From the NCBI RefSeq assembly GCF_963576615.1, contig NC_088711.1, positions 60,120,248 to 60,184,247 of the forward strand: a DNA stretch of 64,000 nt, given 5' to 3'. This document shows, one piece after another, positions 19,601 through 52,979 of this stretch (positions are counted from its first letter, which is position 1; each line of letters opens with the position of its first letter). The notes below the pieces were generated by a model. That model was not told where the DNA came from, ran no database searches, and saw nothing but the letters and a program-made list of their open reading frames with translations. Made by a program: the position numbers and the translations under genes. Origin of the DNA: Watersipora subatra (taxonomy: Eukaryota; Bryozoa; Gymnolaemata; Cheilostomatida; Watersiporidae).

Positions 19601-22600
19601 AAATTTTTGTTTACATTTTAATCTTTTATTTTTTAGAAAATCGCTAAAAAGTAAGAGTCTCTGTTATAAATTATGAAATAATGTATTACCATTTCCCCAT
19701 TATTTTACCTTCTATAGTGACTCGTACTGTCTAACTTACTTATGGTTGCACTACATACTGACTCGTACTGTCTAACTTATTTATGTTTGCACTACATACT
19801 GACTCGTACTGTCTAACTTATTTATGGTTGCACTACATACTGACTCGTACTGTTCACTCTAATATAATATGGTTGCACTACATACTGACTCGTACTGTTC
19901 ACTCTAATATAATATGGTTGCACTACATACTGACTCGTACTGTCTAACTTATTTATGGTTGCACTACATACTGACTCGTACTGTCTAACTTACTTATGGT
20001 TGCACTACATACTGACTCGTACTGTCTAACTTACTTATGGTTGCACTACATACTGACTCGTACTGTCTAACTTAATTATGGTTGCACTACATACTGACTC
20101 ATACTGTTCATTCTAACTTACTTATGGTTGCACTACATACTGACTCGTACTGTCTAACTTATTTATGGTTGCACTACATACTGACTCGTACTGTTCACTC
20201 TAACTTATGGTTGCACTACATACTGACTCGTACTGTTCACTCTAATTTACTTATGGTTGCACTACATACTGACTCGTACTGTCTAACTTATTTATGGTTG
20301 CACTACATACTGACTCATACTGTCTAACTTATTTATGGTTGCACTACATACTGACTCGTACTGTTCACTCTAATATAATATGGTTGCACTACATACTGAC
20401 TCATACTGTTCACTCTAATATAATATGGTTGCACTACATACTGACTCGTACTGTTCACTCTAACATAATATGGTTGCACTACATACTGACTCGTACTGTT
20501 CACTCTAATATAATATGGTTGCACTACATACTGACTCGTAGGGTACACTCTAACTTACTATGGTTGCACTACATACTGACTCGTACTGTTCACTCTAACT
20601 TACTTATGGTTGCACTACATACTGACTCGTACTGTCTAACTTATTTATGGTTGCACTACATACTGACTCGTACTGTCTAACTTATTTATGGTTGCACTAC
20701 ATACTGACTCGTACTGTTCACTCTAATATAATATGGTTGCACTACATACTGACTCGTACTGTTCACTCTAATATAATATGGTTGCACTACATACTGACTC
20801 ATACTGTTCACTCTAACATAATATGGTTGCACTACATACTGACTCGTACTGTTCACTCTAACTTACCCTAGGACACTTATATTTCGCTAGTATTTAGTTT
20901 CGTAAGTAGCGTACAGAGTAAAATTTCACTGCAACTTAATTTCGCAGCTCTGATGAGTGCGAAAATATAGTGATGTGAAAATAAATGCAGTAGAACAAAC
21001 ATAATTAGATCCCTCAGGTTCAGTTCACCCGGCAGGCCTGTATCCACTGGTTGCAAGTTGGGGCGGGTAATGTTAGGCAACTAGTTATGAACACCTGGGG
21101 GTGTTGAGGGGGCCGGTGTAAGCCCCCAATAGGTTTTTCTTATGTAGGGCCTCAGCCGGGCCTCTCGTGTGAAGTTTTAAAAAATTTTACTGGAAAGTTT
21201 CAACATTTTTCTATTTTTTGAGATTTGTTTTGTTTTAGGTGATGTGACTGACGAGACGTTTTTAAATTAAAATAGGCAAAACTTGACCGCAGTTAAAACG
21301 CTCAGAAAAAAGACATCTTTTTCTTTTGAGCGTTTTAACAAAGATCAGTTTTCACGATTTTATTTTAAGTTCATACGGAGGTTTCCACGCTTTCGATGGG
21401 ACATAGCCAAGCGGGTGTTTGGTAAAACTTGATATTTTGCAAACCTTTATAAAGGTCGTTAACAAGAATATTTTGCCACTGATGATGACAATAATGACGC
21501 CTAAGAACTGCTAAAAGTTGATGTTTGTCTCTATGGCTTGGAATAAAGTGATATTCTACAGCAATAAAAACCGCCTCCATAGCCGTTGGGCAAATAACTT
21601 TTCTAATAAATGATGTTGAGGTCGAGTTATCTGAAGCAATTTATCATTGCGTGGGAACGGAGCAAACAAATCCGTTCGAGTTAACCTTGTGTTTGAGATG
21701 AAATGTTACATTTTATCCGAGGGCGAGTTATTCGAGTTCGACTGTACTTAGCCGTGGAAAGTTCCTAAAAAGTTAGGACGCCTCAGCCGGCTAGCCGCCC
21801 CAGGGAATACGGGCCTGGTTCACCGATAAGAAAAAAATTTCAATTTAGGACTAGTTTGTAATCGTGAACCGCAGGTAGAATGATGTGGGTGAGGTCGATA
21901 ATGCAATTTGATTGCTTGCTGCCATTTGTTTCTTGAACTATCAATGAACAAAGCTATTTAATTTCGCGTTTTCGCTCGTTTGTTATGATAGTTTAGTTTC
22001 GCACATGAAATTTTCATGGGAGGATGACTCCGCGACAACGCAAAAGTTAGATGAGGCGAATACATAAGTGTCCTAGGGTACTCTGGTTACAATATATATT
22101 GACATGTCGCTGTAGGTGGAGAAGCGCAAGGCTCTTCAGCGGCACTCAGTCAACAAGTTCATCCTTGGATGGAAGGCAAAGCAAGCTGATGCTAATGGCC
22201 TTATTCTTGGTACGCACATTCCTCTGGTCAGAGGCCTTTTTATGTTACAGACGTTTCACTTTTTTGCAAAAAGGGGGCGACTCTGCCAGGCCAAAAATGC
22301 TTTGAAAGCTTGTCTTTGTTTGTTTGGTCCATCTCCAACTGTAAATGGCAATATTACTGTTTTAGCTTCTTTTACCTTATGAGGGGTTCTTAGCTTCAAA
22401 AGGCTCTGGATAAGCCGGTTAGTTGCTGTGAGATCAACTAGTAGGATGTTTTTACATCTAAATTCATGTACGTGGTTGGTGGGTTTTTCTAAAAGACATT
22501 AAATACAAGAGATGCAACTGCTTGGTTTTTAGTTTTTAGAAAAGGCTTGCTATCGAAATATGATTTACTAGGATAAGCATTTTGTGTCTCGACAGCTTTC

Positions 22601-34094: not shown

Positions 34095-36488
34095 TTATTC
34101 TTTTTCAACATTTCCTGAAGAGTTTGAGTTATCCGGTTCGATCTGTCGTGCTCTACTACTAGTTTTTTCAATCGTCGCAGACTCTTCAAGTCGAGTGATT
34201 TCATTCGTCTCCTCGATCTTGTTATCTACCTGTTTTATGTCGCTGTTTGAGACTGTTTCAGTAGTAACAGTTTCATCTCCACTGCTGTTAATAATTTCCT
34301 GCTCACCTGTTTGTTTGATCAAATTGTTGACTTCATTCTCTTCAGCATTTGGAATATCCTTCTCATCAGCATTACTTGTTTCTTGTATTTCAGTTCTGCT
34401 AGTTTTTTCTTCATCTTTATTATTATTTTCAGCTTCATTGGCTTGGTTGACGTCTTCAGCATTGCTAGAGTCTAGCTCAACTTTTGCTAGTTCTGAATCA
34501 CTTTTGTTTGTAGACTCTAATATCACGCTGCTTTTGACTGTATCTTCTATTGCTGAGTCATCACTCTTTTCATAACTTTCTCTACTGTAAGTGTCACTGA
34601 CACTATCCATGTTAACAATATACCTGGTATTAGCCCCATTCCCATGGACTTTATCAGATTCATTGTCTTCATTGGCTCGGCTGCCATTACTGAAATCGTC
34701 TGTTTTTATTGATACAATTTCGATATTTTCACTGTTCTTCTCTGTCAAGCCATACTCCTTGTCATGAGATTTGCTACCCAAAGCTTCAGTATCACTGGCG
34801 TCTTCAGTATTTACAATATACCCCATATTGTCCCCTGTAGCGCTAAGATGTTCGGTTTCACTGTTTTCACTCCCTTGAATGACACTATCAGCACTACTAG
34901 CCTCCATTTCCAAAGTTGGGCCTTCAGTATTGCTTTTTTGTTCAGTTTCATCCGCAATACTGATTTCAGGTATCTCCGCCATTGTTGCCATTGGTGCATT
35001 AGTTTTATCACTAACAGTTTCAGCATCACTGATTACCTCAACTTTTACAGTATAACCTGTGTTATTTTCAATAGTACCCTTGTTTTCATTTGCACTGGTT
35101 TTGCCTGCTTGAGTCATGTCTTCAGCGTTACTGGCTTCCCTCTCAATTGTTGTTTCTAGATCCGTGTCTCTCTTGTCTAGAGATTCTTCGGCTAAAGAGC
35201 TTCCATTGATTTCTTCATTTACACACTTATCTTTGTTCATATTAATTTCTGTACTTAATGGTTTAGCATCATGGATTTCATTATTTGCGGAGATGCTCAC
35301 ATGTTCAGTCATTCTGGTGTCTTTGGCTTGGTAAAGGTTGTCTGTAATGTCGCTAGATTTATTTATCTCCATTGTTGCCACATCCGTAGAACTTTCGTCA
35401 TTGACTTTCTCAACACTTTTTGGCTGTATTTCTATTGCTTTCTCACTTTGGTGTCTATAACCTTTTTCACTCAACATTCGAGCATCGTCGCCTTCATCAC
35501 TGAGCATTGCGCTTGCAGAAGGAACTTTCCGCTCACTTCTCATGTTGTTAGTTTTAATGATCTCATTACTGGTTGACTCTACAATGTTGCTGCCATTAAT
35601 TTCTACTGTTGGTGTGTTCACAGTTACTTTCCTGTTGGTATTTATTGGACTTGTCGTAAAGTCATCTTTGTTGCTCATCTCTGTAATGTCTTCAGCGTCG
35701 CTAAATTCATCAATTGGCATGGTCTTCTCTTCACCGGTTACATCCTTGCTTGTCAGACTAATATCTTCTGCAACACTGCTTTCGCTAATTTGGTTTATCG
35801 CTCTACTATCATTGATCTCTCCACTCTCGATCTCGCTTCGTTGCCCAATGTTGATAACTGGTAGCGAGGCTTTTTTCTGTTCCACTAGATTTTTTTCCTG
35901 ACTAGATTTAGTATCTATAAAATTCATTTCGACTTCTGCACCGCCTCCTTCAGCTGACCTGAGTACGTCTTTTCTGGCACCCTCTTTGTTGGTTGCACTG
36001 CCTTCAGCGATATCTGAAACAGATTCCTCTTGATTTTGATTTAATGCACTGATACCATCACTCATGTCATTTTCACTGACGCTCTCTTCGTCAGTCTTTA
36101 TGCTTAGGTTTTCAGTTTTGTAAAAATCAGTTTCTTTCTTTCTACCCTCTAAATTTACTTTGTTAGGTAGAGTCTCTCCTATTCTTTGCACAGTTTTTTG
36201 AGGAATTGTGTCAGCATTACTGTTGTTGTTAATCGATTCTGCTCTGCTGTTATCGAGGTCTTCGAGTACAACATCTTCGTTGACATTGCTTCTCGAGTTG
36301 CCATCTTGCACTAGACTGACATTGACCTTTGGTGCTGGGCTCGCGCTGCGTTGTTCCGCAGGACTCCTGCTGCGTTCGCCTCCTGGACTTCTACTGCGCT
36401 TTCTTCTCGGAGTCTCTTCACGATCTGACAATGGACTCCTTGAAGTTGCCCTTGGTACTTTTCCCTTTTCTTCTGGCCCTCTCAAGAT
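34095..36488 (-). CDS. Giant gene last exon: SR-type start and long acidic tail
   Basis: Follows the acceptor ctattgtag; the first codons read ILRGPEEKGKVPRATSRSP. The start has RS/SP repeats (RRKRSRSPGGERSRSP). The next 700 residues are dominated by Glu, Asp, Ser, Asn and Thr. Diverged internal repeats include GYTVKVEVISDAE, GYIVNTEDASDTE and RYIVNMDSVSDT, and SNAEDMTQAG with SNAEDVNQAN. A hydrophobic core followed by acidic residues is the pattern of SUMO-interacting motifs, but that reading is only a guess. The stop codon ends at 34095. Confidence 0.85.
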   Translation of the reverse strand: MLRGPEEKGKVPRATSRSPLSDREETPRRKRSRSPGGERSRSPAEQRSASPAPKVNVSLVQDGNSRSNVNEDVVLEDLDNSRAESINNNSNADTIPQKTVQRIGETLPNKVNLEGRKKETDFYKTENLSIKTDEESVSENDMSDGISALNQNQEESVSDIAEGSATNKEGARKDVLRSAEGGGAEVEMNFIDTKSSQEKNLVEQKKASLPVINIGQRSEIESGEINDSRAINQISESSVAEDISLTSKDVTGEEKTMPIDEFSDAEDITEMSNKDDFTTSPINTNRKVTVNTPTVEINGSNIVESTSNEIIKTNNMRSERKVPSASAMLSDEGDDARMLSEKGYRHQSEKAIEIQPKSVEKVNDESSTDVATMEINKSSDITDNLYQAKDTRMTEHVSISANNEIHDAKPLSTEINMNKDKCVNEEINGSSLAEESLDKRDTDLETTIEREASNAEDMTQAGKTSANENKGTIENNTGYTVKVEVISDAETVSDKTNAPMATMAEIPEISIADETEQKSNTEGPTLEMEASSADSVIQGSENSETEHLSATGDNMGYIVNTEDASDTEALGSKSHDKEYGLTEKNSENIEIVSIKTDDFSNGSRANEDNESDKVHGNGANTRYIVNMDSVSDTYSRESYEKSDDSAIEDTVKSSVILESTNKSDSELAKVELDSSNAEDVNQANEAENNNKDEEKTSRTEIQETSNADEKDIPNAEENEVNNLIKQTGEQEIINSSGDETVTTETVSNSDIKQVDNKIEETNEITRLEESATIEKTSSRARQIEPDNSNSSGNVEKE

Positions 36489-39400
36489 CTACAATAGTAT
36501 GCCCACCTGTTCAAAGCCCTGAGAAACAAGTGGTAATTTTCATTCTAAATGATTGCCCTTTAAATAATCTTGGCCCATTGTGGGTTGTTCGTCAACATTA
36601 AAGTGAGTTTCAAGTTTTGCATCATTTTTATGATTTGCAATTCTTATGCAGTGGTGTAGCTAAGATACAATTATAGACAGCTCTTGAATAGGCGGAAGTT
36701 TAGATTGCAGAGCTTATACAGTATTTGTGGTTGAGTTTCAATTTGATGAATTTTTAACTTATAAGGTAGTCAATTACCGTGATCGCTAGCGTAAATGTAT
36801 ACAGCCAAATCTCGACTTACTATTACTTCTATATACAATTTTTATGACCTGAAATAAAATCAGCGAAAAAATTGTTTTGATATGAGAAGTAATTTTTAAC
36901 ATACATCCAAGATGTTGTATGACATTACAGTGCTGTGAATAAAAATCGAAAGCTGATAAGAATTAAATGTGCGAATAATTTTTTAATAATAATTTAATTT
37001 TCATTTAAATAAAAAAATTGATTTGAGCTTCTATACTTGAGTTGTCTAAGGTGAACATTAGCTAGTCTCTAAGTTGAGTAAGTTCCGCTGTCTATGTCTA
37101 TCATCATGTCTGCATCGGCCAGCCTACACCTACACATAGACATAAAGTAACATTAGAAATATATGTTTTACTTCATTTTTACTTTTATTATAAATATTTC
37201 TATAATAATGTTTTTATTGATTATTATTTCATTAATTCAGTTTTTACATATGATATAGGATATTACATATGGTTTTTATTTCTAGTTTTATATTAATTAT
37301 ATGTGCTTTAATGTTATATGTAATTAAGTGAAGCATTTATCATTATTTCATGCCTTCGGAATAAATTAGTCAAAATACAATGTATTAGCCATCTGAGACG
37401 AACATCTGAGCTGATTAACTTTATGTCAAAGTTTGCCTGTATAAGGTATTTTCTCTGAGATAATTTGACAATTTAGAAATTATAGTTATTCCAGCTTCAT
37501 TTACTTGGGTGAAAATAAAGATTGTCAATCTACCAACTGTATTGCTAGAAGTACACTTGAATTATTAAATAAGTCATTGTTTTGTTTTACTTTTTCTCTC
37601 AACATAAAGAGCTGCCTGGGTTGTCAGTTAGCAAACTAATGACAGTCGTTTAATTGGCTGGCTACTGCTGCCAGATGTTTTGGGTATTTACTAGCCAACC
37701 TAGTTGATTTCCTGCTCAAACACTCTCAGTTGGCCGTTTAAGTAATTGGGCTTATCCAAGTTTGGATAGTCCTATAAACCAACAATTATAGTGTGATGCG
37801 GTGCGCAAATCGGTGCGCAAGGCGATGCGCAAATCAGCGTCCTTCTATGTTAGTATGTAATATGATGTCTCAGATGTGGTAATCATCAAGGATTAGTAGT
37901 GGTCATTTGACACGCTACTACCATATGTTAATGTGTAATTCCAACTTGTCAAAAAAATTTGAACTAAAGTTTTTTGGAGTTAATTCATAAGGAATCCAGG
38001 GGGTAAACATAAGTTATGAAGTACTAGCACGCTGGCACTTCCATGAGCCGTGGGAGATCATTATATGTAATAACTATGCGCACAATTATTCTCATTTGGA
38101 AAGGTGATCAAGTGGTAGAGCGCTTAGCTTTGAATCCCAAAATCTGAGTTGAATTCACATGCCAGGCAATCTTTTCTCCTATTTGCTTTTAACATGGCTT
38201 CAGAAAGACACGGCTCTTATTATAGTAAAGATTATATACTACCAGACTAACTGTGATTTCAGATGTTTAGTGTCGATGCATGCTGATGTAAGAGGTAATG
38301 GATGAGAGATACATACTGATACAGAGATGTCCCACACTTCATGTAACAGTCTGTTCTTGGTTACTAGAGGTTCATCCATTTTCACCTCGAGGAACGCGCC
38401 AGCTTGCACACCGAAGTTGTCCATGTTAGTCGCTAGCATGAATTTCTCATCTGTATTGTCTGTTTGAGTTGTGTTCACTGTCACAGTACTAGATTTTGCC
38501 TGTGAATCGAAGATGCTTGTGTGTAAAGATAGATGTAAGGGCTATATTAACGTGAGATTTATTAGCATGTACTACAATGATTGTAATTGGCCATTTTTAG
38601 AACATTGTAGCAAAGTGAGCGGGATGTAGCGAAGTTTACCCAGTATGAAGGAAATGTTTTCTAGACAAACAATCTGATCTGAAGTAATTTCACGAATAAT
38701 AATAAATTTTTATTTCACGCGCACAGGTCTAGGACACTCGTAACTGCTGCTACAGTAGTGTGTAAAATAAACTTGATCCTTTTGTCGTAAAAATAAAATT
38801 CTGCTTTACAACTATGTTACTTCACAGTGACTTCATAGTCAATAGCCATAATATATATATATATATTAAATTCATCCTCATTTTGTCATGATTTCAAATA
38901 TGTAAAGCAACTGTAGATACCACAACCACCACTGTTAGAAATCCATTTTCAGTCAAAAACAGTGACTGGTTGGTGTGGCGCCGGAATAGTAGCGAGTATA
39001 TTTGTTTCTATTTATAGTGAGAGGGAAGTCTTCTTTATTATTTATTATCATTATTGTTTATTTGTATAACTCTATATGCTATATATATAGCATATAGAGT
39101 TATACATCTATATGCTATATATATAGCATATATATCTATATATGCTCTAGTATATTTACTAAGAATGGCTGTCTCTCGATAGCTATGTCACTGTGTCTGT
39201 CAATATTGTCAATTAGTGTATCATTATGTAGTAGGTTTATCACTTAATAACCGAGGTTTTTACTTTTTTTGTTACGAATGACTTCATGAAACGCGCTTCC
39301 TTAAAGGTGATAATAGACCTTATCCAAGCGTATAGAATTGTTGGCCGTGATCATAGTTTCATGAGTTGATTAGCTATAAACTGGGTGAATTCACTTTAAC

Positions 39401-42400
39401 TCTTTCAAGCCAGGACCTAAGATAACTCAAAAATATGTTTATCTCTCTGATCCTACACTCATGTGAACTCAGGTTCGCAGTTTCGCTTTGTTTTTTCATA
39501 CTTCCGGTTTACACAAGATTACGAATATTGGTGGCTTTGTGTGCTATAAGATTTCAGTAAAATTCCAAAGTTTCAAGTTGATAGGACTATTGGTTATTGA
39601 GCTATAGCAAAAATATCCATATAAACACTTCTATCCTAACGAGAAATGAAAAATGGCTGCCAGCAGAACACTAGTTCTTTTTGCACCTCTGGTTTAAGTA
39701 CAATTATGAAAGTTTGATCACTTTGTGTGATCATACTTCTGTTTTGAGTATATTTCAAAAGTTCAGGTTGATTAGATTCTTAGTTCTGGAGATATTGCCA
39801 AAATACTGAAGGTACTGCTAACAGACTGAGAAATGAAATAATAAATGGCTGCCGTCAAAACATACTGATTGTAATTCTTCATAATGAAGATAAAAGCTAG
39901 GCAAATAGGCAAGCTAACTAAAAAGTCCAACTAAAAAGCTTCTCCTCAGCAAGAAGAGCGTTACACTAAACTATTGGCTTTTTTACTCTTTAAAATATAC
40001 ACATTTATCAGGCTCATTTTACACCAACCATTACGTTTTTTTTCGAATACTTCTAAAAACATCCAATCTTTGAAAGAGTGTGAAATTGCGAATTGTGATT
40101 TGCTGTATCTTCTTTTTTTTATTGAGGTTTACAAGCTTATCGCCTCAATGAGAAAGTCATTGAATCTATGTCATATTGCTGGTATTGAGGGGGTATCAGT
40201 GCTTACCATAGTAGCGTGTTCATACCGATCATGATATCTGGATGTCACAAAACCAGGTATTGGGAGGTCGATAATTTCATGCGCCGAAATGGGATCACAT
40301 TGCACTATACCCAGAATCCTGCAGGGGTCGAAATCTGCCGTTGTCAGTCGGTGAATGCATTTCATGGAGGACTTCCGACCAAGTGATATGGGCTTGACTT
40401 GTGTGTCATTGCGTTCGCTCCCCTACGGTTACAAGAACAATTTCTATGTAGTCGGACAACCAAATGATAACCAGAAAATATATTTTTAATTAAATCATTT
40501 TGTATTATATTTTACTGCATTACCTTTACTTCAATATTATTTGGCACACCAAAAACCTTTCCGTGAGTTGCGTGTCGCTGAGAGGTCGAAAGTGCTGTCT
40601 TGGCTATAGTTACCACGCTAGAAAATGCTGTCGCTAGCATGAGGTAATCCTCTGTACAGGCCATCGTATCGGCAGCAGAGTGTAGTGGTATAAAATCCAT
40701 TTTAACTCTTCCTTCTGTAACCGCAAATGGTACATGAACAAGAAGAATTTTTCTAAATGTTTGTACACCGTTATTTTTCAAGGAGGTTAGCAACATTCAA
40801 AACAACTTTCTGCTTAAAGATTAACACAAAATTACACAACATTTTTTTGTAGATTCTATCAAAAAGTATTGAAATTTTTTTATCATTTGCGATTGCTTTT
40901 GTTGTTTGAGGTGATCTGAAAGCCAGGATGTTTCAAGATTAAAATTAACAAAATGATCGCGGTTAAAACGCCCAGATCAAGCTGCAGACCGCTTATGACA
41001 TACATCTACAGTTGCTAACGAGGAGCATAACGTTGCAACTTTAACACAATAGCTGATATCGACTATAGCAACCATAGCACCTAGTGATGTCATTCCCCAC
41101 TTATTTTTTCTAAGCATTTTAACCTTGATCAAGTTTTGTTGATTTTAATCTTGGAACATCCTGGTAGTCAGATGACCTTAAACATCAAAAACCATCGGCC
41201 ATCGCAAATGATAGAAAAATACTGATACTTTATGAAAAAATCTACTGATATTTTGTAAGTTTATCTTCAAGTCGTTTTAATTAGTCAAATCAGGAGAGTG
41301 GCACGCAAACTAGCAGTTTTTGTATGACATTCTAGCGTCTGAATTCAGATTCCATCAGTTTCGACTTGTAAATGTAGTAAAAACGTATTGAAGATTATTT
41401 TTGCTTTAGTATCTTAGCTAGCATGTTTCATGTTGCTTATTGTTCACTAGGCGAACTGGAAAAAATATATAATGTACAATTTTAACAATTTATATTTATA
41501 ATTCATAAAGCAAAAGATATATCATAAAAATTATGACAATTTATTTATAATAATTCATAACGTAAAATATAAATGTACAATTTTTAACAATTTATATTTA
41601 TAATAATTCATCACGTAAAATATATAATGTACAATTTATAACAATTTGTATTTATAATAATTCATAACATAAAATATATAAGGTACTAATTTGTAAGGCC
41701 AAATTTTTAGGACTACGTGGGGTGAAGAGTTGTGTATTAACTGATGTGGGTAGTAACTTCAATCTGAAACCTGCTTCGCGTATTAAAACCATCATATGTT
41801 AATCACTGACTCTTTTACGAAGACACTGCTATTCGTTCAATTCATTCATCAACCCAATATCCTGGGATATTTTCCCAATAAATACTGCAGATAATTACAA
41901 ATAGCAATCAAATAAATGTATTATGGTCATAATTATGTATAAGGTATAATAATAAAAACGTAAACTCACCAAAAACTTTTTTTATCGTTATTTCGTCTCG
42001 GAGACAGGTTAAGAGAAAACTTAGTGATGGGAAGGTAGCGATCATGATAGAGATACGTACGGTAACTTACTCTACCTTTCACTCTCTAAAGTGAAAGGTA
42101 ACTTTCACTTTATATTATACAGTGAAAAACTAACTTTGATTGTATATTTTTCACTTTCCACCTTCAACCAGGTCCTTTTCGCTTATAAAACTGCTACTTT
42201 TCTAGAAGTTTGGGAATTAATTCATGCATACCATCAAATGTATACTACAGTTTTTCTTAATATGTTAGAAGATTTTTGTATGTTGGAGACAATCGCAAGT
42301 AAAAGGTTTAATTTTATTATTTTAATTTTATTATTTTATTTTACAGTAGGTGGTCTTTAAAGCAGCCCATGATATTATTATCAAAGTTTTTACCTATGAA

Positions 42401-45400
42401 GTTACAACTGATGTGATTCAAGACAGCATTTGGTATCAAAGTGCCTTTGGTATCAAAGGTTTGTTTTTGTCGAAGCGCAATTAATTTCATTTAATCTCAT
42501 TTCAAAGTTCTGCTTTGATATTTCACTAATAATCATCCATTCTTTTGCTTTGTTCATCAACCGTTTGACTATTTAAGAGTTTGGCGCGTAATGGACACCC
42601 GTATATCTACTAACTTTTAAGTTTTTCTCCGTCATAATCTCTCTTTAGTATATTCAGGTTGTTTTTGGCAGATGCGAGAGTACCGAAGGTATGGATGCCA
42701 TCTCGAGTTATCAGCGACCTCATGTCTATCTGAATGAGACTCCAAATGGCTGCTCCCTGCCATGGATAGTCATCCTCACAGCTCATGGTGTCTTCCGCAG
42801 AAAACAGTTTTACAGAATCTAGATTAACTCCTGCTTCTACAAACGTTAAACGTATAACGTTAGTAGAAGCAGGAGTAATATAGTTAACTTTTTCGAGATT
42901 TTTACAGTTTGAACGTTTTTGTTTTTGAGGTTAGTCGGCATAGCTACAGGAGCAACTTCTTTTTGTAGCTGGCTATTAAAAACGAGCTAATGGGTGGCAT
43001 AAATGCGTAACTGTTTGCATTACAATTATGCAATATTTAATATTTGGAGTTGTGGCATCATTAGCATGTAATAAAACGTTCAAATAAAGAATTGATATTA
43101 GCTTATTCTCGTTTGTTTAGGTTGTGTAAAGAGCAAGATAAAACTGCTTAAAACGATGCAAAATGAAACAATGCTAAATACAAGCATAAAAAATCTACTT
43201 GTGTTTTGTTTTATTGCTCTTTGTGTTCGTGCATCATGTAAAGTTCTAACAAGGAGCCACTTAACTTTTGTTTCTCAGCATGATTTATAATTGGCCGCGT
43301 GAACTCATAAGTAGTCAGCCATTTTTAATAATCTCGTCGAATTCAATTGCAACTAAAAAAAGTGATTTTTACTAGGCACTATCAAATTATTGGTTAACCT
43401 TATCACATCTCCTGGAGAGATAAATGTATATAGACCCATGTATACTGGGAAATTATGTTATGTAGAAGCTCTCTACCTATATGTATTATTGTGACGTAAT
43501 TCAACGTATAAATCTTAAAGTGGTAGAATCAAGTTCCCTATTGTTGTTTTCAATATTAAAGAGAACATAACAACGGAGAAGTCTGCCCATTTAGAACAAA
43601 ATGATTATGGATACGCTACTAATGTGTTATATTTTTAAGTATTATTTCAATAACAATTGCCATCTTCATTTATGGTGTTTCCACCCACTGTAACTGCCTT
43701 ATATGTCAGCGCTCACTAGTCTTTGGCCAAATCAAAATTCTTTAGTTGTTAATTAACGAGCACTTTGTTAAGCTTGCTGAAATTTATCTCATGTTGTTAT
43801 TGCGGTATTCGGAAGCATTTCAAACTGTAGCAAAACTTGTTAGTTATGTATTATTTTGGTAAATAAGCATGTTTAAATACGCCAAAAGAAAGTATTGATA
43901 TTTTAATTTTTCCTATACAAGCTGACTAGCATTGAGCTTGGGTGATGCCTGGCGTTTCTTTCATTTTCCATGAGATAAACCACAAGTGGTTGTTCAGGAA
44001 GCTGGTTCTCAGGAACCAGATGTCTTTTTAAGACCAAAAGTTTTTAACGAACAGGCGGAAGGCATCGAGTATGTGACTGGGAAGTTTGGAAGAAATCAGC
44101 CAAAAATATAGAAACGCGTAGGGTTTTCGCAGATGCACAGACACACACACAATAACAAAGTGAGTTTATTAACATAGTTAAGAGCTATTATCGCACAAAT
44201 GGCAATCAAAAGGAAACAAATCTGAATTTACTTTCACTATAACAATTGTCATTCATTTGAAAAATGGTCAATGTAAAAAACAATCATTAACATTCAGTGA
44301 TTTTCTACTTTGCCAATGGCTTTTTTGGTTAACTTTCTTGTTTTACACTTTATTTTTGCAAACCTTTTAGTTCAAGTTCTGAGCTTCACGTTCAAGTTCT
44401 ATTGTTTTTCAAGTTTTGCACTACCAAATCTTTCTACGGATAATCTGTCTACAAATAATCTTTCTACAGATAATCTTTCTACAGATAATCTTTCTACAGA
44501 TAATCTTTCTACAGATAATATTTCTAGAGATAATCTTTCTACAGATAATCTTTCTACAGATAATCTTTCTGCAGATAATCTTTCTACAGATAAGCTTTCT
44601 ACAGATAATGTTATAAGAAAAAATATCCATGTATTTACCTTGCAGAATTTGTTCACTTGATTTACATTTCTTGGGAACCTGAAATGTACATAATTTAATA
44701 TTCACATATTATATACACGTGATAGGCTAATAATATATTTGTAACTTTAAACTTTTAAAGTGGGGAGGAGTCACGCCTAACATTGGCAGACATAAGAAAC
44801 GAAAACAGACTCAGTTTACTCAACCTTAATGCATAAACTAAAACTAATAGTCTCTGTACTAAAGTGAAACAGGAAATGGCCATAGAGTGACCTGATTATA
44901 TGCTTCAAGAATAAGTCAAGAAGCATTCTATTACAAAAGGTGAAGGTTTTGTTCTGTTTATTGTCTCTAGTATTGCTTTTTTAATGATATTAGAAGTCTA
45001 GTGCAGATGCAAGATTTTTGTGTTCATATCACCTCACCCAGCTTGCCAAAAGAATTATATGCTACTGACAACATACCGGTGCACACGAATCTGCCCCATC
45101 TCCCATATGCTGACTCTGTGAGAGGCAGGTACTAGGTGACCTTGACTGGGATTGTAATCCGATGGTTACTCGGTTTCCCATGTTACTAGTAATTTGAACG
45201 CTTGCCGTGTATTGATTCATATCTCTTTCAAGCTCCTCATCCATGTCAATACTTGGAGACCGAGTCTGGTCGCAAGCACTATGCTGAGGAGTTTCATCCA
45301 GTGAGAGATCCACAGTTACCTTGCTGGGTCTATTTGCTGATCTGGAACAACAGGATCTTGCTTCTTTTTGCACTTCCATGGACTGTCCACTTGCATGCAT

Positions 45401-48400
45401 TTCGTCATTTAGCAGAATCTGTGGGCAAGTCTGTTCATTCTGTGTGATGCTAACATCTACGCTTACAGAGTTTGACTTACTTGATCGATTCATAGCTGAA
45501 TTTGGAGTAAGAGCCTCATTTCTGATTGAAAAACTGAGACTACACTCTGACAAGTCCAAAGCTGGAGTTCGTGTTTCACATAACCTGTTGTCACCCACAT
45601 CTCCTTGCTCATCAAATATGCTGATGCTTGGTTGAGGAGTCTGAGCTTGAAACTCTGCTCCAACACTGATTCTGCTGCCATGTGTCTGCGATGGACTCCG
45701 TTTAGCATCAAGCAGTCTCGGGTCAATGCTGACTGAGCTGCCCTGCTGCTTCTGAAAATGCTGCAAGCTAACTCGGCTGTCTCCGGTCTGTTGGGGCAAG
45801 GCAATGGTTGGGCTTGGGCTGGGGCTTCGGGATTGTCTTTTGGGATTTTTACATGGTTGTTTTAATCTTTGAGAACTGGAGCATTCCTTTGTCATTTTGT
45901 GTTGCGATTTGCTAGGTGAAAAACCATCACCAATAGGTGCATTCAGCAATGATTCTGGAATAGGCGAAGAGGCTCTTGTTACAAAATTAGTCACGAGATT
46001 TTGTGAAGGAATCACTTGTTCTCGTAGCCCTTGTGATGGTTTGCAGGCCTCTGCTAGTTCACAAGGTCCATCTCCCATTCTCATACTGAGAGAAATGCTT
46101 GTTGTGCGTTGGCTTGTATCCGGACATGGACTCGGGCTCCGTTTCCGTAGTTGACTGCTAGATGTGTTTCTTGGACTGGGTGTTGTGCGATTGTCTAAGA
46201 CATTTTCAGAAAGTTTACGATCGATTTGATAAATTGATGAGCATACTGCTGGACTCGGGGTTTCTGGACATCTCTCAGAATTTTCCAGAGCGCTGTTGGT
46301 AAGTTGTAGAGAGTTGGTCTGCTGATCATTGAACGATGCAGTCGAGTTTGGTTCTACAACGGCTATCAGCATTGACTTACTCTTTCCCTTGGTTTTTTCT
46401 TGCTCACACGCTTGGTCAGTCAGTGCCCCAGAGATGATGACTGGCGAATCACCCTTCGCTGCGTAACTGAAACAATTTGGGAAGGTTTTTTAAATCAGGC
46501 ATTGTTTATTCTAAAAAGGATATCGTTTTTGGTGTAGCTTGACTATTTGTGAGAATTATTTGTTGCCAGTCTCAGGTAAACCAGTTGCATGCACTATTAT
46601 ACTATGCATAATGTGCTATTGTATTTTCTGATAGTCAAAATCAGTTCTTACAGTTTGTATTCATGTCTAGTCTATTTTATGAATCTGCTTTAGCAGCTTA
46701 GCACAATTCTTTCTCCTCAAACACGGGATACTCATACTCGATATACACATGGCAATGTATTCATTCCATGTCATTTGCTAATGTAAATACCGGCACACGC
46801 TGTTTTGCCTCACCTGTCGGTAATTATGGAGACTGCGTGTATACGACCATCCACTTGTTCAGCAACCATGAAAAGACTGGCAAAAAACTGCACATCACTC
46901 ATACATGCTGGTCCTAGGGACACCATGGCTCCAGCATAGCAACCTCGTCTTCGCATCGCTAGGTCATTGCCTCGCACACACACTAAAACATAGTAAAAAT
47001 GCTTTCTATATGTGCATGTTGTAACAAATGTATTTCATGCTGACGCAATATGCTAATGCTATATAATGAGACAGCTTGCATTTACCATTTTTCAAATATT
47101 GAAATATAATTTCTAAAAGTTATTTGTGTTAATGTTGGTTAAGTTGTTGTATTTGGAGGAGAAAAATAAATGTTTCTATGAGGGATCTCAAGTTTTCTTT
47201 AAGGATACAATGTTAAAAAAACGTATCAGTTGTCAAATGTTTGAACAATATTTAAAGAATTTTTTTAGCAGTAAGTCGGTGTTTTATTTTTCTATTATGT
47301 AAGTTTTTGGATCTATGGCGAAAAAGATTTGCGTACATTTGTCTGTGATTACACTAGCTAGAGTGTTTTGACATAAATCTACATTACATGTCATACATGT
47401 ATGTGTGTTCATGGATACACCTATTTAGTAGATAATAAATATAGAACAGTATGATTAACTTCAGCGTGACTAGCACTTACTTGATGTTGCTGACTGCATG
47501 TTAAAAGCTTGAAGGAAGTCTGGTGCATTGAGAGGAGAATAAGCTTCTTTAGGTGGTGGTGTTCGGAATAACTGTATGAAGGATCAAGAAGAAAATAAAT
47601 AGGACTATTGCTAGGGTAATGACAAGTTTGCATCTAATCTATAGAAAAATGAAGGTATTTTGACCTTCACTATCATAAAGGTCAAAATTTAATTTTATTT
47701 TCATGTCATAAATTTCAATTTATGAGCTAGTAGATCTATTTCTATTTTAAAGGTTGACTTGCAACAAAATTCACATTACCGTTATTTGATATGAAAAGAT
47801 TCACCATGTCTTACTCTGTTGTGTTGTAGGTGCAAAATATGTGTAAAAAGGTGATTACAAGCTCTTAAAAGCTCAAAAACAAACAGAAAATCGCAGCCAC
47901 ACGAGACCGCTGTAGTTTGGATTCCCTTTCCAAAATGGCTCAAATGTGATGTAGTTGTGAGAGATGGTTTCTGTTTACACTTTCTTGCAACTTTATTCGT
48001 CGAAATATTTTCACAAATATACTTCACGCATTCAATAAAACTATGTCTATTGTTCTTACGCGTCTGTTTTATCGTCATTGTAATGCTGTCACTTTTAGCA
48101 CTGATATCTTATAACTTACCGTAAAAAATCGTTAAAATTTTTAACCTTAGCTCGAATGAGTACATATCTTTGTCTGATAATCATGACGAGCTTGTTGGTC
48201 ACTTGTGATAATCGAAAAGTGCTGCAGATATTATTTGCGAAGTATTGGGTCACATGATCAGAGAATGACTTGACGATTGAATAATGCCGAAACAAAACTG
48301 TAAAGTAGCGAGCATCTATATTTGATACGGGGTCTTCGGTAAAACCCGAAGTGTTTGTCATAAACTAGTACTACAATAAGTTTTATATTGAGCTTTGTAT

Positions 48401-51400
48401 TGGCCTTTCAATTCACGTGAGAACATACGTGACAAGACGACAACCAAATTTCGTGGCTATGTCATCGAAATAAAGAGATTCCAATCGACAGCCGCTTTTC
48501 GTTTTTGAGCTTTCAAGAGCTTGTAATCACATTTCCACATATTTGGCACTTACAACACAACAGAGTAAGACATGGTGAATCTTTTGATACCAAATAACTG
48601 TAATGTGAATTTTGTTGCCAGTCAATCATTAAGCTGATACCTTTCTCACAAGAGAAAACCACCTGCTTTGCTGTCTGTGATATAATAGTTTGTTATATAG
48701 TAATACTTTGATGGTAATACTTGTTATTTTGAAGCAACGTAATAGTATTTTTAGCAGAAAATCATTTAAGATTGAACTATTATATTTATAAATTATACCA
48801 GTTTATTTTGAGTGGGATCCTCTTACCTCCTGTGGGGAAGCCTGATTTGTGTTTGACCGCATAGAGTGAGGCATTATTCGTGAGCTTGCGGCACAATGAC
48901 CTGTCTTTGATTTGACTGGCTGGACAATTACTCTCGATGTACAGGCTTCTAATTGTGATGGAGAGATCTGCTGATCAATGTTTGACTTGCTGGCTTGAAG
49001 TGTTTGTAGATTTGATGCTGAAACTCCAAGCTGTTTTGTTGATGGGCATCGACTCGCATTTGGCTTGCCAGCTTGGAGTATTTGTTGTTTAGAAGCACAA
49101 GTTTCAATTTGAGTGTTTGAAATTTGCTGACTCGCTTTCGATTTAATAGGCTGTAACATTTGTTGATTGGATGACATAGCTTCAATTTGTGACGTAGAAA
49201 GACATTGGTTCGTATTTGATCGCATAGTTTCAAGAATTTGTTGTTTGGATGCAGAAGATGCAATTTGGGAATTTGACATTCGTTGACTTGTCTTTGATTT
49301 AACAGGTTGAAGTATTTGCTGATTGCATGGTGAAGGTTCTACTTGGGTGGCTGACAGACACCGGTTCGCGCTTGATTTTGTTGTTTCCAGCACCTGTTGA
49401 TTAGATGCAGTAGCAGCGATTTCATTAGTTGAAGTTCGTTGACTTGTTTTTGATTTAGTTGGCTGAAGCATTTGCTGATTGGATGGTGAATATTCTACAT
49501 CGGTGGCTGATAAACACCGGTTTGTGTTTGAGTTGGTTGTTTCCAACATCTGTTGATTGGATGCGGGAGTAGCGATTTTAGTCGTTGAAATTCGTTGACT
49601 TGTTTTTGATTTAGCAGGCTGGATCATTTGCTGATTGGATGGTGATGAGTCTACTTGGGTGGCTGACAAACGCTGGTTCATGTTTGATTTGGTTGTTTTC
49701 AGCATGTGTTGATTGGATGCTTTGGTACAAATGTCAGTATTTGAAATTTGTTGACTTGTTTTTGATTTAGTTGGCTGAGGCATTTGCTGATTGGATGGTG
49801 AAGGTTCTACTTGGGTGGCTGACAGACACCGGTTTGTGTTTGATTTTATGGTTTTTAACACATGTTGATTAGATGAACTTTTAGTGATTTCAGTAGTTGA
49901 AATTCGTTGACTTGTTTTCGATTTAGCAGGATGAATCATTTGCTGATTGGATGGTAAAACCCCTACTTGTGTTGTAGAAAGTTGTTGGTTTATGTCTGAC
50001 TTTGCGGTGTCAATCTTTTGTTGCTTGGACTGTGAAGTCGTGATTTCAGTGTTTGAAACCTGCTGACTTGATGGTGAAGCTTTTTCCTCTGTAGCAGATA
50101 GACATCGGCTTGTATTTGACTTTGTTGCCTCGAGCCCCTGTTGATCTAATACAATTGGTAACGTTTCGGTCAAATCTGCATCCTGCATTTCTGGCAATTC
50201 TTCAATGGCTTTAGGCAGGCTTTGTTGAACTTGTATGGATGGTAAACGGGAGGAACGGTGGTCTAAATTTGAACTAATAGATTCTCTCGAGACATTAGAA
50301 GCTGATTCAGCATTTTTGGAGCTTTTACAGGGTTGGATTATACTTTTTTCGGCAACTACTGAATGCCGGGGCGAATTTGAAAAACTAAATGTTCTCTGTT
50401 TTACATTACTTGAAGAATTACGAGGGGATTTTGGTTGTGCTGCTCTTTGTTTGCCAGAGGCAGAAGAAGCATTTGATTGTTTTTTAAAGGACTGTGATCT
50501 ATTATCTCTTCGCATACTTTCTTGATTTGGAATGGAATTAGTCCTTTGGGAGGTTGTTGATAGCAGCCTTTGTTGGTGTGGGTTTAATGAAACCGATTGT
50601 TTTTTAGATGTTGTTAGACGTCGTTCCGGAGGAATAGCAGGTAGCTTGTTTTCTTGTTCAACTGCATCGCAGGTTGAGAGCCTTACTTCGGCTTTATACT
50701 CAGCTTTGTTACACCAATTTGCATCATTGGCTAATCGAATGTCTGAGCGAGGTCGGCCATACATGACCTTGTTGATAGCTTCAGGCTCCACAGGCCATGC
50801 GGAAAGGTTGGGTAAAATGGGACTATCGGGTCTAGCAGTTGCCGCCAGGAGGAGCTGTTCGCGAAGAATATTTTTAGCTTGTTGAAACTGTGCTGCAAGT
50901 GCAAAATATTTTTGTTACAAACAGCATAATTTAAACACTTCTCTTTGGATTAGAAATAAAAGTAGAAGGCTTAACTGAACAGCTCTGTTGCCATTTGGTT
51001 TTAGATTAGGTTCTCAAATGCTATAGAACAAAACAAGAAGTTAGTTTTTTAAATCCTTCTGAAATTTACCTTTTTTCTGTTTCTTGTTAATACAATGTGT
51101 TTTGATGCCACAATATTTTAATGAAAAGTTGAAAAAGGTTATTCAAGCATCCGTTTGCATAAAGTAATTCTAAAATAATTTAATGAACACACAATTTGTT
51201 GTGAGCTAGTCTACTAAACATATTATCAATGGCGGGCAAACAACCATAATTTTCAGGAATTTTTCAGTGCCTGTACCATTTGTCGTGACACACAAGCAGA
51301 GCTGGCCATTATTCTTGACATTACACTTGATATTCCAAAGTCACTAGCAACATTGCAGCTATTACAACCTTTATTTCAACTGCATGCCAGTATGACATTT

Positions 51401-51833
51401 GGCAAAATGTCAAATGTTGAAAATGGGAAATACAGACTAATATAGCAGATCATATTTAAAGATTTCCCTTATTAATTCTAAAACAGCTGAATGATGCTTT
51501 ACTCAGCAAAAAAGTAAAGAATGTTCATATAATTGCCAGATATTTATGATCATTTAATACATGTAATTTAGGTACGTCACGATCTACAATAAAAGGCTGA
51601 AATCTACACAAGGTCTTTAAATTCTCAAACCTACCTGCTCTCTCACTTGCCCGCCGCTCATCGGCTCGCAGTTTTTGTTCAGCAATAATACTTCTTCTTT
51701 TACTATCTTCATAATGTTCTGCGCTGACTTTGAAATAATCGTCGACAGCTTTCTCTGCGTCATAGGATGCTCGTGGTGGGTAAGTGTTCTGTGTGATAGG
51801 CCTGTATGGCTCAGCTGATGGTGAACACCCCAT
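34095..51833 (-). CDS. Giant N-terminally lipidated, repeat-rich, mostly disordered protein (11 exons, about 2,363 residues), unrecognised family
   Basis: Exons, 5' to 3' on the minus strand: 51833-51635, 50892-48827, 47571-47481, 46982-46814, 46466-45077, 44678-44639, 42836-42684 (3' end may instead be 42615), 40714-40524, 40422-40207, 38499-38317, 36488-34095. They sum to 7092 nt and all phases agree (1,0,1,2,0,1,1,0,0,0). The protein begins MGCSPSAEPYRP, the pattern of N-myristoylated Gly2 with palmitoylated Cys3, then a charged helix, a 26-residue repeat array, a Ser/Pro-rich section, short exons with a conserved-looking module, and an SR-rich then acidic tail ending NVEKE. A membrane-associated scaffold is inferred from the lipidation motif and disorder only. 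No enzymatic domain was recognised. Confidence 0.75.
38075..38240 (+). mobile_element. tRNA-derived SINE, family 2
   Basis: Carries the A-box-like gtggtagagcgcttagc and the B-box-like gagttgaattcacatgcc, preceded by the same leader as the copy at 8450. It lies just downstream of exon 10 of the giant gene, on the opposite strand. Confidence 0.55.
38317..38499 (-). CDS. Giant gene exon 10
   Basis: A 61-codon exon between the acceptor cgattcacag and the donor gtatgt, phase 0 at both ends. It contains TDEKFMLATNMDNFGVQAG and FLEVKMDEPLVTKNRLLHEV. The string MLAT and the preceding acidic residues recall exon 8 (EDYLMLATAFSS), suggesting a further diverged copy of the same module. Confidence 0.72.
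39060..39150. repeat. AT-rich palindromic repeat
   Basis: The self-complementary tatgctatatatatagcata occurs twice. It could form cruciforms. Confidence 0.7.
40207..42836 (-). CDS. Giant gene exons 7-9: short exons encoding a more ordered region
   Basis: Exon 42836-42684 encodes EAGVNLDSVKLFSAEDTMSC and EDDYPWQGAAIWSLIQIDMR. Exon 40714-40524 encodes EGRVKMDFIPLHSAADTMAC and TEDYLMLATAFSSVV. Exon 40422-40207 encodes KPISLGRKSSMKCIHRLTTA and HEIIDLPIPGFVTSRYHDRY. The first two start in the same phase and align over about 60 residues (EAGVNLD/EGRVKMD, SAEDTMSC/SAADTMAC, DDY/EDY), so they look like a duplicated exon. The composition here is hydrophobic and Cys-containing, unlike the flanking disordered exons. 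Confidence 0.7.
40816..41270. mobile_element. Fold-back element, copy B
   Basis: Same inverted-arm structure as the copy at 4078, in the opposite orientation, with a matching central segment (gatatcgactatagcaacc). It lies in the intron just 5' of exon 40524-40714 of the giant gene. Confidence 0.6.
41455..41690. repeat. AT-rich tandem repeat, about 58-bp unit, four copies
   Basis: Units contain acaatttatatttataataa and aaaatatataatgtac. Intron of the giant gene. Confidence 0.7.
42824..42878. repeat. Inverted repeat spanning the splice acceptor of giant gene exon 7
   Basis: Arms 42824-42848 and 42855-42878 contain ctcctgcttctac and its complement, with a 6-base loop. The left arm includes the minus-strand acceptor (tttgtag) and first coding bases of exon 7. 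Confidence 0.8.
44435..44612. repeat. 15-bp tandem repeat, about 12 copies
   Basis: The unit is ctttctacagataat, repeated with few changes. On the minus strand it starts about 30 bp after the donor of the 40-nt exon 6. Confidence 0.92.
44639..44678 (-). CDS. Giant gene exon 6 (40-nt micro-exon)
   Basis: Acceptor gtacatttcag, donor gtaaat. It reads VPKKCKSSEQILQ in phase 0 to 1, exactly the phases needed between exons 5 and 7. A 15-bp tandem repeat begins about 30 bp downstream of its donor. Confidence 0.6.
45077..46466 (-). CDS. Giant gene exon 5: Ser/Pro-rich disordered section
   Basis: Starts after gtttcag and ends at the donor gtatgt. It begins YAAKGDSPVIISGALTDQ, then has many SP and RSPSP sites (KRSPSPCP, RQSRSPSPSP, SRSPSTCLSQ) typical of proline-directed kinase targets. 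It also has repeated short beta-prone patches (ISLSMRMGDG, RISVGAEF, SVSVDVSI, VTVDLSLDE, VTIGLQSQ) spaced tens of residues apart. The patches look like diverged copies of one short motif. Antisense ORFs in the same stretch are shadows. Confidence 0.82.
46814..47571 (-). CDS. Giant gene exons 3 and 4
   Basis: Exon 47571-47481 encodes LFRTPPPKEAYSPLNAPDFL. Exon 46982-46814 encodes CVRGNDLAMRRRGCYAGAMV and SLGPACMSDVQFFASLFMVA, ending EQVDGRIHAVSIITDS across the junction. Exon 4 shares the CMSDVQFFASLFMVAE pattern with exons 7, 8 and 10. Phases (0 to 1, then 1 to 2) fit exons 2 and 5 exactly. Confidence 0.75.
47751..48628. mobile_element. piggyBac-like MITE family 1, copy A (878 bp)
   Basis: The element is bounded by TTAA on both sides (47747-47750 and 48629-48632). 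The ends are long inverted repeats, with cttgcaacaaaattcaca at the left and its complement at the right. It extends through the shared motif agattcaccatgtcttac. There is no transposase ORF. It lies in the intron between exons 2 and 3 of the giant minus-strand gene. TTAA target duplication is the hallmark of piggyBac elements, so mobilisation by a piggyBac transposase elsewhere is inferred. Confidence 0.85.
48827..50892 (-). CDS. Giant gene exon 2: Ser/Gln-rich tandem 26-residue repeat array
   Basis: A 2066-nt exon. Its first part is basic and Ser-rich (KQSVSLNPHQQRLLSTTSQR). From about 50130 down to 48880 it is built of about fifteen 26-residue units that alternate between two subtypes. One has SNQQMLQPxKSKTSQR preceded by LSATQVEPSP. 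The other has ASNQQxLETTKSNTNRC preceded by ISTTEIAT. The higher-order period is thus 52 residues (156 bp). The array is open throughout and no stop interrupts it, so the repeat is selected or recently homogenised as protein. Confidence 0.85.
51635..51833 (-). CDS. Giant gene exon 1: MGCS lipidation signal and charged helix
   Basis: The ATG at 51833 opens MGCSPSAEPYRPITQNTYPP. Gly2, Ser/Pro following and Cys3 fit N-terminal myristoylation with adjacent palmitoylation. Residues 24-66 are rich in Ala, Glu, Lys and Arg (for example EQKLRADERRASERA) and should form an amphipathic or coiled-coil helix. The donor is gtaggt, phase 1, joining AQFQQAKNILREQLLLAATA in exon 2. Promoter elements were not identified. 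Confidence 0.8.
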
Positions 51834-52979
51834 GTTTATGTGGGATGCTTAGCACGAGCCAATATTGCCATTAACATGCCAGGATCAGCTCATATTTTGA
51901 TGATGTCAGCGCTCTAGCAGGATTCATTAGTTTGCTACTGTTGAACCACATTGTCATAGGTGAAGGCTGCTAAGCCTCTGCTGTCAATTTTCATTTATCC
52001 ATAAAGTTGGAATGGACATGACTCGATTCAACAGCAGGTAATTTAATAGGAGCGAAACTCCAATCATGCTCGAATTATAAAGTAAAATTCTAGATTCCTT
52101 CTACTCATGCAAAACTAACTTAGATAGTAAAATTATTTTACCGTACATCTATTTCTCTCCTGCAAGCTCACCTATTTAAGGATTGCCATGCGACATGTAT
52201 TTTATCCCGCTATAAATGATGCCATGCAAGGGTGGCAAGCCTCTACTAGTTGCGGTCAATTTTTATTTGACTGCAATGTTAGAACCAACATGGCTTGATC
52301 TCACAGCAGATTGTATTCTAATAGTAAAGTAATATACAACCATTTTATTATTTGCGACAATAACACTGAAATTCCATTGTAAAATTATAAAGATTTATTC
52401 TTTTACTTCATTCAAAGCCAACAATGATAGTAAAATACTTTTACCATAGGCTCTCTTTATCGAATGAGCGCAACGCAATGGCTCTTTTATTCCGATGTAC
52501 ATTGTAAATTGTACATGATGCTGGGTAACGTGCTCACTAGTTTACTAGTTATTGGTAATGTTCAGATTGGCACAATTACAAACAATGTGAATAATCCTAG
52601 CTTTAATAATCCTTCCTTAGCCAACAACTGCTGCATGCCAGGAGCTTTACCGTGAATATAAAAGGGCAGTAAATCAAATTGATATATATTTACTTATTAT
52701 AATGCGCTAACAACAATCTAGTAAACTTGAACAGAACGAATATGAGTTTAGTAAGTAGAGGATCAGCAGCTCATTTCTGAATAGTCAAGTAGATATGTTA
52801 TATATGGAATGATGGGGGGGGGGCGCATGACAACCAAATGTACAATATTAATAAAATCATGGCAAAGCGACCTGCTCTAAGGTGTACCCTCGTCTACAAA
52901 AATGGATGAGGAGTTTGTTCCTCTTCAGAGCAATAAAATATCCACCCAATAAAAACTATTTCCGTCAGGTTCTATGGAT
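51834..52979. other. Interval between PDI 3' end and giant gene start
   Basis: Both neighbours are on the minus strand. Contains the PDI 3'UTR, a G10-type run near 52816, a possible minus-strand AATAAA at 52486-52491, and the diverged duplication listed separately. The giant gene promoter must lie here, but no TATA or initiator can be assigned with confidence. Confidence 0.45.
51955..52340. repeat. Diverged tandem duplication upstream of the giant gene
   Basis: Two related segments, about 51955-52050 and 52228-52330, share aagcctct, gtcaattttcattta-like and cagcag-containing blocks. They lie in the 1.1-kb interval between the PDI 3' end and the MGCS start codon. Confidence 0.45.

Follow-up and report, generated by a model that had tools for sequence, protein, structure and literature searches.

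Proteins that combine an acylated N-terminus with a phosphorylatable disordered chain include MARCKS, the MARCKS-like proteins and Drosophila Akap200. AKAP12 (gravin), a proposed kinase scaffold, is long and largely disordered, carries acidic stretches and has an N-terminal Gly for myristoylation, and Raftlin, which is membrane-associated, begins MGC. By the known rules, N-myristoyltransferase acylates a suitable Gly2 after removal of the initiator Met, and an S-acyltransferase acylates a Cys3.

The gene considered here (the giant gene, encoding the giant protein) lies in a window of 64,000 nt, by which we mean the whole stretch of DNA analysed (C4:60120248-60184247 of the 784-Mb Watersipora subatra assembly, which comprises 239 contigs). 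The giant protein resembles AKAP12 in length, disorder, acidic stretches and N-terminal Gly, and differs from it in the presence of Cys3, in having no Pfam match to a scaffold family and in that no kinase-anchoring helix has been identified. With MARCKS and Akap200 it shares an acylated-type N-terminus and a disordered phosphorylatable chain, a likeness to which a strongly basic paralog adds; unlike MARCKS, neither giant nor paralog has a match to the family in Pfam or a Lys/Phe effector block that is recognisable by eye. Raftlin and the giant protein both start MGC, whereas their pairwise scores lie at shuffle level. We give an even chance to the reading that the locus is one gene, whose 2,386-residue product is an acylated, membrane-tethered scaffold of a small orphan family, tuned by phosphorylation.

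Structure of the giant gene

The giant gene runs from 51833 to 34095 on the minus strand of the window and comprises 11 GT-AG exons, whose 7,161 nt encode 2,386 residues plus a stop, without an internal stop:

51635..51833, minus strand: exon 1, with the ATG, MGCSPSAE..., the putative acylation sites G2 and C3 and a charged segment; donor in phase 1
48827..50892, minus strand: exon 2, with the conserved head (SILPN..WP.E...NKV.YG..RSDI.LA.D..W..KAE in the paralog alignment), then the repeat array
50666..50890, minus strand: part of the family head within exon 2, residues 67-141; alignment A2 with the paralog
48953..50122, minus strand: 26-residue repeat array within exon 2, residues 324-713, 15 units alternating between types A and B with a 52-residue period; TRF period 156
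47481..47571, minus strand: exon 3, entered in phase 0 and left in phase 1
46814..46982, minus strand: exon 4, scored as foldable jointly with exon 3
45077..46466, minus strand: exon 5, SP-rich, with RSPS recurring
44639..44678, minus strand: exon 6, 40 nt, with splice sites at the 98th and 96th percentile
42615..42836, minus strand: exon 7, copy 1 of a duplicated module; phase 1 in, phase 1 out
40524..40714, minus strand: exon 8, copy 2 of the duplicated module
40207..40422, minus strand: exon 9, within a foldable stretch
38317..38499, minus strand: exon 10, within a foldable stretch; its donor is weak (39th percentile)
34095..36488, minus strand: exon 11, with an SR/SP-rich start, a long acidic tail with a few degenerate repeats, and the stop

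The gene model, eleven exons joining in one long frame, is confirmed. An earlier reading made from the sequence only had already proposed eleven exons of consistent phase and about 2,363 residues; the eleven in-frame exons stand, and the count has been corrected to 2,386, the difference probably stemming from other acceptor choices. Its MGCS start at the ATG at 51833 has been borne out, as has its description of a two-type array, SP-rich and SR-rich regions and an acidic tail, found in exon 5 and in the start and tail of exon 11. Under a codon model with generic amino-acid frequencies and a third-position G+C of 0.40, set against the trinucleotides of the window, the coding log-likelihood is positive for 11 of 11 exons in the predicted frame, with the lowest values for exon 6 (0.4) and exon 3 (2.6). 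Ranked with splice weight matrices among the minus-strand sites above the score cut (1,321 donors and 2,430 acceptors), eight of the ten donors reach at least the 94th percentile, the exceptions being those of exon 7 (66th) and exon 10, and eight of the ten acceptors at least the 86th, the exceptions being those of exon 5 (77th) and exon 11 (65th). A crude dynamic-programming gene-finding script has recovered exons 2-11, with the exon 10 donor as the sole difference. The same script has chained an upstream protein disulfide-isomerase (PDI) gene onto the giant gene and has joined exon 1 at 51801, which lies beyond the ATG; since it over-predicts in this way, its backing extends to the exons but not to where the gene begins and ends. 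Downstream of the giant stop, AATAAA/ATTAAA signals are located at 436 and 554 nt, and the first intron measures 742 nt.

Two repeat and gene features adjoin this structure. Just past the exon 6 donor starts a 15-bp minisatellite (44427-44609, 12.2 copies, in the region 44424-44708, minus strand), through which the exon 6 frame remains open; without splicing, the translation would thus run through roughly twelve CRKII-like pentapeptides until it met a stop. The PDI exons, likewise on the minus strand and upstream of the giant gene, extend over 57.5-63.1 kb and have been recognised by a thioredoxin domain and by a match to a PDI in the PDB at 7.2e-84 for a 273-residue join.

A paralog with the same head

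A paralog has been found on the same contig and strand, at a distance of approximately 188 kb between the two starts, with its coding part (without stop) at C4:59983933-59978563. It is predicted to consist of two exons and encodes 513 residues that begin MGCSASGERPP... and carry a net charge of +66; exon 2 continues the head and then passes into repeats of the RSMSxSSRKPSGQ type. The query that detected it comprised 285 residues of the giant protein (the head together with exons 3-4 and the first part of exon 5, with the array omitted) and matched the paralog head in the genome at 43% identity (E=5.7e-17); among the best candidates, which alone were scored in the genome searches, the only further place besides the query's own exons was a chance-level one at E=5.85. 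The reverse search with the paralog head has returned its own two exons and the two exons of the giant gene, nothing more at E<=10, with giant exon 1 alone reaching E=0.0015. Both genes share the first intron, which lies in phase 1 after ERA/ERG and measures 3,832 nt in the paralog. In the alignment of the heads, exon 1 included, 59 of 138 residues are identical, codon positions 1, 2 and 3 are identical at 80, 93 and 55 of 138, and the same codon is used in 24 of 56 identical residues once Met and Trp are excluded. The paralog is thus like the giant in its MGCS start, phase-1 first intron, head and R-x-x-S-rich region after the head, and unlike it in its length, its two predicted exons, its repeat type and its strongly positive charge. 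With composition correction off, a tblastn alignment runs on from the head into both arrays at 25% identity overall, which we read as shared richness in Ser, Gln and Arg, the alternative being that the arrays descend from one ancestor. As detectable in this genome, the family is two genes, in which MGCS and head are conserved and what follows is different. The head of approximately 140 residues defines a small orphan family whose members bear different repeats.

The paralog also bears on the question of whether the giant gene is one gene. Exons 1-2 might be complete by themselves, encoding 762 residues if exon 2 is read through, with exons 3-11 belonging to another gene or yielding a second product from the locus; this is the strongest rival, to which we assign a real, if clearly minor, probability. 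It gains from the paralog, whose open frame appears to stop within exon 2, followed by AATAAA/ATTAAA signals that begin some 70 nt further on; in the 50 kb analysed around the paralog, exons 3-10 find no match. The exact 3' structure of the paralog is a prediction, because other strong donors lie inside its exon 2 (best score 6.17). In the giant gene itself, the exon 2 frame closes 24 nt past the donor, and an AATAAA overlaps the stop. Against a gene ending there stands the donor, which scores 7.19, a value attained by 20 of 7,389 GT sites on both strands or once per 6,400 nt, and whose phase suits exon 3; a donor so strong, 24 nt ahead of the frame end, makes it probable that exon 2 is spliced onward. 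Both the exon 2 stop and the strong donor would be accounted for if one gene had alternative ends.

The paralog locus is rich in tandem repeats in both coding and non-coding DNA. Its intron 1 (C4:59983743-59979912) holds a tandem array that reads YHPIQLYVLLYHSIQL in translation, and a further tandem array lies in the downstream flank. About 23 kb downstream of the paralog, at approximately C4:59953699-59955210 (within C4:59950001-59960000), there is a long regular array with VCTQYVHSMYT in translation and several frames open on both strands.

Selection, foldable stretches and phosphosite motifs

A gap-free alignment of exons 7 and 8 spans 60 residues and scores 88, against 20.9 +/- 4.2 for shuffled sequences, none of which reach it in 500 trials. 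In the codon comparison, for which the first codon, straddling the splice, was taken as genomic DNA, positions 1, 2 and 3 match in 35, 37 and 23 of 63 codons, and of the 21 residues identical among 63 only 7 use the same codon; the introns flanking the two exons are dissimilar. From these comparisons, the pair is an old duplication that has been preserved at protein level. Exons 4, 9 and 10 have been rejected as extra copies of the module, as shuffles reach their scores in 10, 54 and 39 of 100 trials, and a profile of exons 7/8 run against the 1,096 frames of at least 30 residues in the window has found only these two exons clearly among the matches listed (next E=0.51). Mutually exclusive use of the two exons has been considered and set aside, because exon 8 exits in phase 0 and exon 7 in phase 1, and a simple exchange does not fit. 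In the repeat array, compared over 12 of its 15 units, differences per codon position amount to 0.308, 0.190 and 0.508 among six A units and to 0.174, 0.172 and 0.274 among six B units, with the third position highest in both. By this third-position bias, seen in the array, in exons 7/8 and in the head versus the paralog, these parts are coding sequence under selection.

The same figures weigh on a second rival, by which the giant, apart from its head, would be repeat filler of little function, fast-evolving and largely neutral. The two paralogs have no recognisable array in common, and exons 3-4, 5 and 6-10 are without a second copy in the genome: the search with exons 6-10 has returned none, and exon 5 has a single other match, at chance level (E=0.21). 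Yet the long frames stay open, and changes cluster at third codon positions, both within the array and between exons 7 and 8; we consider the filler reading unlikely.

FoldIndex scores 74% of the whole giant protein as unfolded, with 89% for the array, 97% for exon 11, 64% for exon 5, 100% for exon 1, 46% for the exon 2 head, 11% for exons 3-4 and 17% for exons 6-10, in a crude measure by which a folded control, the joined PDI exons, is still 31% unfolded. Two stretches of foldable composition (exons 3-4 and 6-10, approximately 370 residues), which of the two genes only the giant has, thus enclose the SP-rich exon 5. The description of the protein as disordered accordingly applies to most of its length, and not to exons 3-4 and 6-10, which score as foldable and contain the duplicated module. 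Since AlphaFold, given the two-sequence alignment of the exon 7/8 module, has yielded a mean pLDDT of 37.8 and no confident model, foldable is to be understood here in terms of composition only.

Phosphosite motifs have been compared with shuffled sequences, and the enrichment is overstated, as units of the same array cannot count as independent and the exon 11 excess coincides with its SR-rich start; with this in mind, R-x-x-S occurs 29 times in the paralog past residue 140 versus 12.8 in shuffles (0 of 500 reach), 11 times in giant residues 141-755 versus 5.2 (2 of 500), 10 times in exon 5 versus 4.7 (3 of 500) and 9 times in exon 11 versus 4.3 (4 of 500), and SP occurs 13 times in exon 5 versus 6.0 (1 of 500) and is absent from the paralog after the head, where 5.8 are expected. 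Because the four segments enriched in R-x-x-S bear different repeats, the excess, about twice the expectation, is suggestive of many basophilic kinase sites. The looser motif [RK]..[ST] shows no excess in exon 11 (20 versus 18.5; 183 of 500), nor does the stricter [RK][RK].[ST] in giant exon 2 (3 versus 2.3; 208 of 500). The last 746 residues of the giant contain 164 Asp and Glu versus 74 Lys and Arg. Two further motif classes have been dismissed: an LC8-type array, with TQ[TV] found 6 times in the giant against a mean of 1.5 and a maximum of 7 in 300 shuffles, and an SQ/TQ cluster, with [ST]Q found 35 times against a shuffle mean of 34.8. A literature search combining LC8, multivalent, TQT motif and tandem has found no paper.

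Probable membrane anchoring and the proposed scaffold

The start of the giant protein combines Gly2 with Ser6, which fits the myristoylation rule, and has Cys3 at a usual S-acylation site. The PS00008 pattern matches at Gly2, and an N-myristoyltransferase gene is present in the genome (PF01233, with three exons matched at a single place on C3); a run of basic residues directly after the acylation site is absent from the giant. These results, together with the MGCS of the paralog, uphold the sequence-only reading of an N-terminus suited to Gly2 acylation. Following known rules, the giant N-terminus is likely to be anchored on the membrane via predicted acylation of Gly2 and Cys3. Anchoring would be lost if translation began upstream and MGCS were internal or skipped, which we hold to be improbable. 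The gene-finding script has taken the acceptor at 51801, thereby removing the ATG, and among 3,940 AG sites of the strand the acceptors at 51801, 51814 and 51847 rank at the 85th, 86th and 71st percentile. The chain proposed by the script is implausible, however, as it joins the PDI gene to the giant gene, and an in-frame stop at 51851 lies just upstream of the giant ATG; the paralog has its MGCS at the matching place, with an in-frame stop of its own 93 nt 5' of the start.

No recognisable family had been noticed at the outset, and neither giant nor paralog has matched one in the collections searched, Pfam and the PDB among them. In Pfam, no family reaches its cut-off with the whole giant protein, and none is better than E=0.029; no MARCKS profile has been listed at E<=10 for giant or paralog and no AKAP12 or other AKAP domain for the giant, where HMMER filters discard most matches with E above approximately 0.1. 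A PDB search covering the non-array pieces (the head, exons 3 to the start of exon 5, exons 6-10 and the alignments A1 and A2) has given nothing or chance-level matches, the best at E=0.42. Viral contigs and GTDB genomes have confirmed no relative and, as non-animal collections, carry little weight. Raftlin, considered because it too starts MGC and because exon 4 bears it a brief likeness, has been rejected: a Raftlin piece used as positive control matches PF15250 at 3.3e-93, whereas the giant has no match to this family, and shuffles reach the scores of the giant against the same piece in 123 of 300 trials for exons 3 to the start of exon 5, 233 of 300 for exons 6-10 and 209 of 300 for exon 4. 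We hold it to be improbable that sequence searches have missed a distant kinship of the giant with a known acylated family (MARCKS, gravin/AKAP12 or Raftlin), even with the same N-terminal logic, a paralog as basic as effector-type proteins and the start shared with Raftlin in its favour, since Pfam finds none of the three in giant or paralog.

Under the preferred reading of one acylated scaffold, acylation of Gly2 and Cys3 would hold the giant N-terminus on the membrane; on weaker grounds, the head may supply a fixed address, and the long arrays may serve as a flexible phosphorylatable tether. Basophilic kinases acting on R-x-x-S and proline-directed kinases acting on the SP sites of exon 5 could alter the charge of the giant and, with it, how firmly the giant holds to the membrane and to the partners of its foldable stretches. 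Kinase control is possible on the basis of these motifs, and we infer the scaffold role less firmly than the lipidation. As a long shot, giant and paralog may act as a complementary pair on the same membrane via the MGCS head, where the acidic tail of the giant and the shorter basic array of the paralog would bind through their opposite charges; a condensed layer would form on the membrane, to be dissolved by basophilic kinases through R-x-x-S phosphorylation.

If the anchoring is right, the two genes represent a new family on a familiar plan, in which an acylated head is conserved and the rest is rewritten by repeat expansion, leaving two sisters of opposite charge without a recognisable common array. 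They would offer a test case for what fast-evolving disordered scaffolds conserve, namely address and phosphosite density rather than sequence. As animal genomes commonly encode disordered proteins without known relatives, we regard the find as moderate, and the part worth following is the conserved, putatively acylated head with its different, oppositely charged extensions.

Elsewhere in the window, a hAT-type transposase frame (15472-17283, plus strand) sits among exons predicted for a gene on that strand that has several C2H2-like fingers; its PF18658 zinc finger scores above the cut-off, and DUF4371 and the hAT dimerisation region score below. A satellite-like array at 19730-20865 has a unit of approximately 41-45 bp, with higher-order periodicity at 353 bp, and a 32-bp tandem array at 2016-2591 holds 18 copies.
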